Below are positions 9,777 through 21,680 of a stretch of 58,175 nt of DNA, one piece after another. Numbering within the stretch: position 1 is the stretch's first letter; each line of letters starts with the position of its first letter. The translations under genes and the position numbers were made by a program. The notes below the pieces were generated by a model, which was not told the DNA's origin, ran no database searches, and worked only from the letters and a program-made list of their open reading frames with translations. Source of the DNA: Sedimentisphaerales bacterium (GTDB lineage: Bacteria; Planctomycetota; Phycisphaerae; Sedimentisphaerales; UBA12454); NCBI GenBank assembly GCA_016930635.1, contig JAFGGI010000050.1:1-58175 (forward strand), in the 5' to 3' direction.

Positions 9777-10286
9777 ATGATAAGGCCTGCGAAGAAACAA
9801 GCTTTTATCCCGTTAGAGAAAGAGATGAACCTGAAAGCAGTACATAAATTGATAATTGAGGGACAGGTTTCTCTAACGGGGTTTACCCTCATTGAAGCTA
9901 TGATAGCGCTTGTGATTTTTTCAATAGCAGTAACGGGGTTTATTCTTCCGTTTGCCTCCAGTGCGATGATTCAGCAGCAGGGATGCGACCAGACGCTGGC
10001 GGTTAAACTTGCCTGCGACCTTTTAGAGGAAATAGTTAATACTGATTTTGATCAGATAGTAGCCGGCTATAATGGTTATTCCGAAGAGAAAGGACAGATT
10101 CGAACTGCTTCCGGTGCAGTTTTTAGTGACCCGGTCTATGCAGATTTCAGCAGAGAAGCAGTATGTGAATATGTTTATATGCCGCCGCAGGTTAATATGG
10201 GAGCGCCAAATTTCATTAGAATAACTGTCCGGGTGTATCAAAATGAACTTAAACTTGCAGAAATTTCAAGGCTCAAAAGCAGATGA
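9777..10286 (+). CDS. GspI-like minor pseudopilin with long leader containing an inverted repeat
   Basis: The protein has a prepilin site TG|FTLIEAMIALVIF, a hydrophobic helix, and a domain with KLACDLLEEIVNTDFD, which resembles GspI/PilV-type minor pilins. The leader is unusually long (about 33 residues from the ATG at 9777, chosen for GGGA five bases upstream). It contains FIPLE and SLTG, encoded by the two arms of a perfect 13-bp inverted repeat (9809-9821 and 9868-9880). An in-frame ATG at 9825 in the loop would give a normal 17-residue leader and is an alternative start. GTG at 9732 and ATG at 9753 are less likely. The stop overlaps the next start by ATGA. Confidence 0.83.
   Translation: MIRPAKKQAFIPLEKEMNLKAVHKLIIEGQVSLTGFTLIEAMIALVIFSIAVTGFILPFASSAMIQQQGCDQTLAVKLACDLLEEIVNTDFDQIVAGYNGYSEEKGQIRTASGAVFSDPVYADFSREAVCEYVYMPPQVNMGAPNFIRITVRVYQNELKLAEISRLKSR
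9809..9880 (+). repeat. Inverted repeat in pilin leader, copy A
   Basis: CCCGTTAGAGAAA (9809-9821) and TTTCTCTAACGGG (9868-9880) form a perfect 13-bp stem. CCTG/CAGG (9830-9833 and 9864-9867) extends it past an eight-base bulge that contains the in-frame ATG at 9825. The 3' arm encodes the residues just before the prepilin cleavage site. Confidence 0.9.
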
Positions 10287-13086: not shown

Positions 13087-13662
13087 ATGAAAAGTAGCAG
13101 AAAAGAGATTTTGCGGGCATTTATCCCGTTAGAGACAAGGTATCACAGATACCTGATGGCTACCAAAGCTGGTTTGTCTCTAACGGCATTTACGCTGGTA
13201 GAACTGCTTATTGTGCTGATCATTCTCGGGATCGTAGCCGCTGCTGCTGTACCTTTGTACAGCTCAGCAGCTACATCGCAATTAAAAACGGCAGCGAATA
13301 TGATCGCATCTGATATTGAATATGCAAAAAGCATGGCGGTAAGCACAGGCAGAAGTTATTCAGTTGTTTTTGATCCTGCTGCTGAGAGTTACAGGATAAA
13401 TGATTTTGCAGGGACAACAGTATCTCATCCTGTACACATAGGCGCCAATTACGTTGTGGATTTTGCAGGAGATTTCAGATTGGATAAGGTTGATATTATA
13501 AACACAACCTTGAATATGAATACGATTGGGTTTGATAGTCTTGGGGCACCTTTCAGCGGAGCAGGTGTCAGTTTGAATAATGCTTTAATCAGATTGGGTG
13601 CCGAGAATGAAACTATGACTGTCAGAATTGAACCTGTAACAGGATATGTAAAAATTGAGTAG
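13087..13662 (+). CDS. GspH/FimT-like minor pseudopilin with long leader containing an inverted repeat
   Basis: This prepilin has the site SLTA|FTLVELLIVLIILG. The residue before the cut is Ala where Gly is usual. After the helix, DIEYAKSMAVSTGRSYSVVF is the typical GspH/FimT stretch, followed by a beta domain. The leader from the ATG at 13087 is about 35 residues and again contains FIPLE and SLT, encoded by arms of a perfect 13-bp inverted repeat (13126-13138 and 13174-13186). An in-frame ATG at 13156 in the loop would give an 11-residue leader. The ATG at 13087 has only a weak GGG upstream. It is followed by pilM after nine bases. Confidence 0.85.
   Translation: MKSSRKEILRAFIPLETRYHRYLMATKAGLSLTAFTLVELLIVLIILGIVAAAAVPLYSSAATSQLKTAANMIASDIEYAKSMAVSTGRSYSVVFDPAAESYRINDFAGTTVSHPVHIGANYVVDFAGDFRLDKVDIINTTLNMNTIGFDSLGAPFSGAGVSLNNALIRLGAENETMTVRIEPVTGYVKIE
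13126..13186 (+). repeat. Inverted repeat in pilin leader, copy B
   Basis: CCGTTAGAGACAA (13126-13138) and TTGTCTCTAACGG (13174-13186) are perfectly complementary. Inside lie GGTATC-ACA-GATACC (13139-13153) and a weaker ACCA/TGGT pair, giving a branched fold. The region 13120-13135 shares 16 identical bases with 9804-9819. Confidence 0.9.
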
Positions 13663-20069: not shown

Positions 20070-21680
20070 ATGCTTAATACAGTAGACAATCGGTTAAGTT
20101 TTTTGCAATCCAAGGTTCTCAGAGATTTTGGGTCGGATATGAATTCTTTCGGGATCAATCTTGTTGTCTATGATTCTCAGCTGAATCTGCTCTTTAACTT
20201 TGAAGGCGGCAGGTTTACGAGCGATTATGAATCGATATCAGCCTACGCCAGGAAGGTTCTGGTTTCCGGATCGAATCGTATGCAGACTTTTGGTGAATTC
20301 GACCAGATACTCTCTGCCAGCCTTATGGTTAAAGATGAGACCCTTGGTGTTGTAGTTATGGACTGCGGGCAGCCTTCACTGTCGTCAGATAATGAAAGCA
20401 GGACAGCTATCTCAGGCTATATAAACCAGATATTCAAAATGTTTATGATTTCTTTTGAAGAAATACATAAGAATCAGCGGGAGATAGAATTAGTCAGCAA
20501 TGAACTTGCCCAGACTTATGAAGAACTTGTGCTGCTGTATAAAATGAGCACTAATATGAAGGTAACACAGTCCGATTCGAATTATCTTCAGATGGCATGT
20601 GACAGTCTGACAGAACTTATAAATGTTGAAGGTATTGCGATTTTTCTGGAGAGACAGATTGATGATATGAAACAGCTTGTGCTTACTGCCGGGACAGGTC
20701 TTATTGCCATTGAGCATAAACAGTCTAATATGCATGAAATTCTTTTTGAAAGACTCCTTGCCAGGCTGGAACTTGGCGATGAAGCCCTGCTTGACAGTGA
20801 AGTAGACTCGCCTTTGGATTATGAATGGTACGGCAGGATAAAAAGTATCATAGCTGTCCCTCTTCGCGGCAAGGACAAGATAATCGGAATGATGGTTGCT
20901 ACTAACAGACTTGATAAGCCGGACTTTGACAGCACAAGCGTAAAACTTTTCAGCTCAGTAGCAAATGAATGCGCTGTCTTTATTGAAAACGAGACCCTGT
21001 TCCGCGAACTTAAGGAACTTTTCATAGGTTCATTAAAGGCTCTTACAAACAGTATCGATGCAAAAGACCAGTATACCAGAGGTCATTCGGAGCGTGTGGC
21101 ATTTATTTCAAAATGGATAGCTGAACATTATTCTTATAATAAAGGTGGTCTGACAGTCGAGGATATACAGAAAATATATCTTGCCGGTCTGCTGCATGAT
21201 ATCGGAAAGATAGGTGTGTCCGAAGAAGTTTTACGCAAGGAAGGCGAGCTTACTAATATTGAATACGAACAGATGAAGATACATCCTACCCTGGGTGCGG
21301 GCATACTGTCTGAGATCCGTCAGATGAACGACATAATACCGGGCGTACTTTGCCATCATGAATGGTATAACGGCCAGGGTTATCCCAGAGGTCTTGCTAA
21401 AGATGAGATTCCTCTGGCAGGGAAAATTGTAATGATAGCCGATGCTTTTGATGCGATGACTTCTAAAAGAACTTATAGGGGTGCATTAGGTCTTACTAAT
21501 GCAATAGATGAGATCGAAAAGAGTCTCGGTATCCAGTTCGACCCTGAAATCGGTGCAATATTCATCAATAGTGATATTCGCAAATTGTGGGAAATAATAC
21601 AGGGAGGAAGTGTTGAGAATTATTCCAGCAGCCGTTTCAGTGATTACGGCACTGTAGCAGTAGGAGCACTTTTAAGATGA
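20070..21680 (+). CDS. GAF / HD-GYP domain protein, probable c-di-GMP phosphodiesterase
   Basis: An N-terminal region of about 150 residues is followed by a GAF sensor domain (about 165-315) and a C-terminal HD-GYP domain. The HD pair is H376-D377 in LLHDIGKIG, and the second metal block is HHEWYNGQGYP near residues 429-439, so both hallmark motifs are intact. Such proteins hydrolyse the second messenger c-di-GMP. It lies between a CheY-like receiver and a STAS protein in a pilus operon. This suggests local control of c-di-GMP at the pilus machine. The stop codon overlaps the STAS start (ATGA). Confidence 0.92.
   Translation: MLNTVDNRLSFLQSKVLRDFGSDMNSFGINLVVYDSQLNLLFNFEGGRFTSDYESISAYARKVLVSGSNRMQTFGEFDQILSASLMVKDETLGVVVMDCGQPSLSSDNESRTAISGYINQIFKMFMISFEEIHKNQREIELVSNELAQTYEELVLLYKMSTNMKVTQSDSNYLQMACDSLTELINVEGIAIFLERQIDDMKQLVLTAGTGLIAIEHKQSNMHEILFERLLARLELGDEALLDSEVDSPLDYEWYGRIKSIIAVPLRGKDKIIGMMVATNRLDKPDFDSTSVKLFSSVANECAVFIENETLFRELKELFIGSLKALTNSIDAKDQYTRGHSERVAFISKWIAEHYSYNKGGLTVEDIQKIYLAGLLHDIGKIGVSEEVLRKEGELTNIEYEQMKIHPTLGAGILSEIRQMNDIIPGVLCHHEWYNGQGYPRGLAKDEIPLAGKIVMIADAFDAMTSKRTYRGALGLTNAIDEIEKSLGIQFDPEIGAIFINSDIRKLWEIIQGGSVENYSSSRFSDYGTVAVGALLR

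Follow-up and report, generated by a model that had tools for sequence, protein, structure and literature searches.

Two prepilin genes of a Sedimentisphaerales bacterium carry a similar inverted repeat within their leaders, which raises the question of whether such a repeat serves the pilin genes or merely resides in them. We analysed the whole stretch of 58,175 nucleotides that holds both genes (hereafter, the window). The preliminary description of this DNA had reported, in the first gene, a perfect 13-bp inverted repeat with a 46-base loop, arms encoding IPLE and SLTG in frame and an in-frame ATG (9825) in the loop, together with an equivalent repeat, similarly positioned with respect to the prepilin cut, in a second pilin gene (13087). 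It had proposed either an RNA hairpin that controls which start is used or a mobile or recombination site that pilin leaders can tolerate. All these observations were confirmed; of the two readings, the second was supported and the first was not. The boundaries of the repeat, on the other hand, had to be redrawn, because a 4-bp direct repeat, TTTA, flanks each copy and lies outside the element. The features are as follows.

9777 to 10286, + strand: host gene A, a GspI/PilV-like prepilin gene, with its likely start at ATG 9777
9804 to 9807, + strand: 5' target duplication TTTA of copy A
9808 to 9881, + strand: mobile palindromic element, copy A, 74 bp, in frame (IPLE...SLTG)
9809 to 9821, + strand: 5' arm of copy A, CCCGTTAGAGAAA
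9825 to 9827, + strand: in-frame ATG within copy A, not conserved among copies
9868 to 9880, + strand: 3' arm of copy A, TTTCTCTAACGGG
9882 to 9885, + strand: 3' target duplication TTTA of copy A, falling in the GFT codons
13087 to 13662, + strand: host gene B, a GspH-like prepilin gene, whose relatives hold empty-site orthologues
13120 to 13123, + strand: 5' target duplication TTTA of copy B
13124 to 13188, + strand: mobile palindromic element, copy B, 65 bp, in frame (IPLE...SLTA)
13189 to 13192, + strand: 3' target duplication TTTA of copy B

Beyond the perfect 13-bp arms of copy A, one terminal base pair has decayed (T.G). The arms of copy B (13123-13138 and 13174-13189) match at 94%, with one mismatch near the end, and this copy is laid out as a terminal stem with two inner hairpins; its own in-frame ATG lies at 13156. 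Both insertion lengths are multiples of three, 78 bp (26 codons) for copy A and 69 bp (23 codons) for copy B. When the element is removed and one TTTA is kept, ordinary prepilin leaders remain, MIRPAKKQAF/TLIEAM in gene A and MKSSRKEILRAF/TLVELL in gene B, which we take as the ancestral states.

We found that the two copies belong to a dispersed family with the ends YCCCGTTAGAG...CTCTAACGGGR, whose short copies measure 47-77 bp. In the bacterium's own genome (2.45 Mb), the paired end pattern occurs eight times and the reversed control pattern never, so that the repeat is present far beyond chance. Besides the two prepilin genes, these inverted pairs occupy intergenic sites, the beginnings of further genes and the interior of an ORF of 674 codons; longer end pairs (N 56-86) were not found in this genome. 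Single family ends at C23:45700, C26:54103 and C50:4925 of the same genome are probably decayed copies. Among 392 genomes drawn from the phylum, eight carry the element, and ten other genomes of the same order within that draw do not. A scan of GTDB species genomes returned at least 115 stretches, mostly from Patescibacteria (many lineages), Omnitrophota and Planctomycetota, with single cases from Nitrospirota, Elusimicrobia, Cloacimonadota and others among the matches listed. The family counts given below are based on 137 distinct matches collected mainly from the same three groups. A Nealsonbacteria genome of 0.7 Mb alone holds 30 short copies. Matches in Paenibacillus (L110, L127) and Eubacterium (L045) were set aside as chance-like, being devoid of the outer YC/GR bases and of exact duplications. 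Eight short copies were seen on viral-class contigs (L198-L205), and we discarded spread by phages, with only eight stretches in 2.9 million viral contigs. On one Omnitrophota contig, two identical 49-bp copies lie 1.1 kb apart (L086:6778 and L086:7894), the first located at the GFTL site of a prepilin, the second sharing its flank (TTTACC...GGTTTACC), which reflects either recent copying or gene duplication.

Across the 137 matches, the 4-bp duplication lies two bases outside the conserved CCG/CGG, and the identity per position is 74-80% within it versus 18-47% outside. The duplication is exact in 81 of the 137, the target being R-YNNR-Y; TAAA/TTTA is the commonest form among the exact cases, followed by TGAA/TTCA and TCAA/TTGA.

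The short element has no coding capacity of its own, and each of its ends can be read through in two of the three frames, as PLE...LTG or PVRD...SNG, while the third frame meets a TAG. Of the copies located in ORFs of 120 codons or more, 60 of 65 have an insertion length that is a multiple of three; elsewhere the figure is 32 of 72. Choosing ORFs of this size itself favours in-frame copies. The host proteins recognised from their sequence include TrpB, RibD, Fpg, RluB, Dus, DnaE, YchF, KsgA, FtsW/RodA and ScpB. When TrpB was aligned to PDB 5ey5, a single gap of 22 residues fell exactly at the 66-bp insert.

Prepilin cut sites hold 11 of the 137 copies versus about 1.75% of genes (p ~3e-5), a rough background that comes from 35 PF07963 hits per ~2000 genes in the bacterium's own genome, with some non-independence in the p value. 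The GFT codons of prepilins (GGN TTY ACN) contain GTTTAC, a match to the target; moreover, the duplication rebuilds (G/A)FTL downstream. Since the cut site is thereby restored and the extra residues fall in the leader that is normally cleaved off, prepilins represent a safe and recurrent landing site, and the lengthened prepilins would presumably be processed normally. Four orthologues of gene B in the same family (L157, L159, L160 and L161) have an empty site. In a sister genus (L158/L138, from a Phycisphaerae genome of Lac Pavin), the site of the orthologue is occupied by a copy that lies in reverse orientation and differs from copy B in its interior, hence an insertion that is probably independent. 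An Omnitrophota pilin operon (L133:2702-3560) has two adjacent prepilin genes with partly nested copies of about 150-190 bp (GFTPLE...SLTGFTL); a 774-bp end pair on this contig, examined as a candidate long cassette, turned out to be two separate prepilin insertions.

This distribution bears on the two explanations that would assign the repeat a function in pilin genes. A structured RNA that governs, within prepilin mRNAs, either expression or the choice of start codon would agree with the strong stem, the covarying arms and inner hairpins and the in-frame ATG that both window copies have in their loop. However, most copies lie outside prepilins, within other ORFs or between genes; only three of the 11 prepilin-site copies have an internal Met; and the upstream start of gene B (13087) has counterparts in element-free orthologues. 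An Rfam search at the element returned nothing above chance, with no match to group I/II introns or to known structured RNAs. With target duplications and empty-site orthologues adding to a distribution that already contradicts it, we consider this explanation highly improbable and rejected the start-choice hairpin. We give even less credence to a conserved, functional leader peptide. The PLE...LTGFTL leaders mentioned in the preliminary description are borne out in Omnitrophota prepilins and recur in those of Phycisphaerae, but it is the DNA ends that dictate PLE...LTG. The middle is not conserved, we saw no purifying selection on its residues when orthologous leaders were compared, other genes read this DNA as PVRD...SNG, and orthologues exist without the element; the peptide was therefore rejected as well. 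Based on the sequence comparisons, the inverted repeat is very probably a family of MITE-like derivatives tied to a GIY-YIG transposable element and tolerated where it inserts in frame.

The arms are kept paired while their sequence changes. The outer seed bases belonged to the search pattern itself, and their conservation is therefore uninformative. Further along the arm, position 10 is paired in 129 of 137 copies and position 11 in 115, whereas column composition predicts 79.5 and 49.2, respectively; the last base pair of the element, C:G or T:A, is paired in 123. Among the 30 short copies of the Nealsonbacteria genome, position 10 is A-T in 22, G-C in seven and unpaired in one. The matched change reported between the two window copies, GAGAA/TTCTC against GAGAC/GTCTC, is real and fits this general pattern. 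In 24 copies of 65 nt, which share a 14-bp terminal stem and two 7-bp hairpins, 91% of cells are paired; we counted 106 double changes, with both sides changed at 17 of 28 pairs and compensatory changes at all 14 inner-hairpin pairs, and the covariation score was 0.400 versus 0.186 for shuffled and 0.067-0.120 for slid partners. Other subfamilies (46, 55 and 58 bp) have different inner hairpins or none. By the test that the preliminary description set itself, its proposal would have been refuted had the arms lost their complementarity or occurred in these two genes only; they are real, covarying and dispersed.

Selection on a cruciform could account for the covariation, but so could a neutral process. 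Quasi-palindrome correction, by template switching or mismatch repair on extruded hairpins, is known in bacteria and would make arms covary without any selection on structure. It is in line with the homogeneous arms seen inside one genome and with the subfamilies that have no inner hairpins; on the other hand, two separate inner hairpins are retained in 61-bp copies across phyla, and the ends remain perfect as the interiors diverge. We regard it as a possible account, somewhat less likely than not. It concerns only the cause of the covariation and is compatible with the MITE-like origin favoured above.

The evidence for a larger partner comes from elements of 275-290 bp, 25 of which were found as exact-end pairs of 274-291 bp by end sequence and spacing alone, ignoring the protein. 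The Nealsonbacteria genome carries two 278-bp copies with the same ends, exact TGAA duplications and a solo GIY-YIG protein. Such pairs are present in 12 of 48 element genomes (15 pairs), and 380 genomes drawn from the phylum of the Nealsonbacteria genome gave ten new ones. All 25 exact-end pairs of this length encode a GIY-YIG protein as their sole gene, frameshifted in one (L286). The protein matches Pfam PF01541 and its catalytic residues are invariant; the structure model is confident (pLDDT 89), and its nearest relatives are UPF0213 and the branched-DNA nuclease SLX1. The reading frame stays open up to the final codon of the element, where most copies read SLTG, and the flank supplies the stop, which lies at the junction in all 25 copies (TGA in 20, TAA in five). 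In 19 of the 25, a host ORF of 50 codons or more begins at the junction, its ATG or GTG being made up of the last element base and the TG that follows; the host genes include YchF, PyrG, Fmt, TsaD-like and RfbA-like genes. The upstream duplication also carries an ATG in 12 copies, and in seven of these the ATG is in frame with the GIY-YIG gene. A matching 4-bp sequence on both sides is found in only 12 of the 25; the other 13 either lost the duplication or arose differently. In four cases (L294, L295, L292 and L262), the element ends give the downstream gene a re-created ATG or GTG that overlaps the nuclease stop (ATGA/GTGA), a sequence arrangement that suggests translational coupling.

Family ends do not flank the majority of the solo GIY-YIG genes in these genomes. 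A perfect 12-bp repeat with an exact duplication nevertheless accompanies eight of 57 GIY-YIG places, compared with seven of 6840 random windows. Three solo GIY-YIG genes (L262, L263 and L277) have different perfect 12-bp ends and the same TGAA duplication at host start codons, and another (L233) has a variant end. Since other genes share the duplication and differ in their ends, the superfamily of such GIY-YIG elements is wider than the family described here, possibly with short derivatives of its own. The bacterium's own genome has no intact GIY-YIG copy with a family end; in the same taxonomic family, L278 holds a variant partner with repeated ends and no matching duplication.

The sequences establish the family, its insertion with target duplications, its tolerance in frame and the ends that it has in common with GIY-YIG elements; how these elements might move can be outlined as follows. 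The short element, probably non-autonomous, is compatible with protein coding and inserts at R-YNNR-Y with a 4-bp duplication, and its in-gene copies, mostly of 3n length, add about 15-27 residues to the host protein. The GIY-YIG nuclease perhaps recognises an extruded cruciform, which is possible since its nearest solved relatives include SLX1, and perhaps cuts YNNR with a 4-nt stagger, leaving host repair to complete the insertion. The same nuclease would mobilise both the short and the 275-290 bp forms. On balance, we lean towards a new class of transposable element, 275-290 bp long with 12-bp inverted ends and a structure-selective GIY-YIG nuclease of ~90 residues, which would insert at start codons, borrowing the host start and leaving a new one, and would also move cruciform-forming derivatives of 47-77 bp into protein genes. 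We know of no GIY-YIG protein that performs strand transfer, and an ordinary transposase (Y1/RAYT or DDE) might instead mobilise the MITE-like element in trans, in which case the GIY-YIG gene would travel as a passenger or as a second selfish gene. Y1_Tnp genes occur in 14 of the 17 genomes that were examined, mostly element carriers, and 4-bp duplications with symmetric targets are typical of DDE enzymes. However, every 274-291 bp pair contains a GIY-YIG gene, and no cassette longer than this one was seen among the listed G392 ends or the pattern-matched loci. None of the end pairs found delimits a cassette above 400 bp, nor did we meet a DDE transposase ORF inside the ends, where GIY-YIG is the only gene. 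Y1 enzymes are not known to make target duplications, and no family ends enclose the Y1 loci that were inspected in G392; common as they are, we rejected Y1 transposases as the mobilisers. Altogether, we consider mobilisation in trans unlikely.

Among known systems, the closest parallel would be the Rickettsia palindromic elements (Ogata 2000, 2002, via PMC10969869), which are reported from Rickettsia as elements of ~150 bp, form several subfamilies and are likewise palindromes inserted in frame into unrelated protein genes. By description, ours differ in their length of 47-77 bp, their YCCCGTTAGAG ends, 4-bp YNNR duplications, spread over many phyla, preference for prepilin cut sites and GIY-YIG partner with common ends. 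With 12-14 bp terminal inverted repeats, frequent target duplications, no coding capacity and a larger, perhaps autonomous, coding partner with the same ends, the family also resembles MITEs of DNA transposons; unlike these, it is extremely short, its inner hairpins covary and its partner is a GIY-YIG nuclease rather than a recognised transposase. The partner itself is comparable to free-standing homing endonucleases of the SegA type and to UPF0213, having a single small GIY-YIG domain with its catalytic residues kept and being presumed selfish. Homing genes, however, move to the allelic site by repair, whereas the 25 GIY-YIG copies are bounded by inverted repeats, adjoin different genes at many unrelated start codons and have short derivatives. 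REP/RAYT elements are likewise short, dispersed palindromes, but they produce no target duplication, carry GTAG/CGTC tags and are mostly extragenic (PMC3733652); the duplications of our family place it outside that group. The insertions of CPR rRNA genes in PMC11270868 concern the same host group and comprise non-intron GIY-YIG insertions as well as insertions below 200 bp that have no ORF; that survey mentions neither inverted repeats nor target duplications. Our search of open-access papers found no description of GIY-YIG elements with inverted repeats or of this palindrome family. The GIY-YIG-bearing family seems to represent a novel type of transposable element, one of very small size.

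These elements account for odd insertions of 15-27 residues in conserved enzymes and for strange long prepilin leaders in uncultured bacteria, and they suggest a function, open to experiment, for part of the solo GIY-YIG genes that abound in Patescibacteria. They also show how selfish DNA can lengthen protein-coding DNA where genomes are very small. Consisting of a single small nuclease domain and a 12-bp end, the pair makes a candidate minimal transposition system; if confirmed, the GIY-YIG element would rank among the smallest autonomous DNA transposons known.

Finally, a scan of the window revealed a separate 297-bp stretch (20939-21235) with near-perfect 12-bp inverted ends (CGTAAAACTTTT/AGAAGTTTTACG) and CAAG direct repeats; ten base shuffles yielded none.
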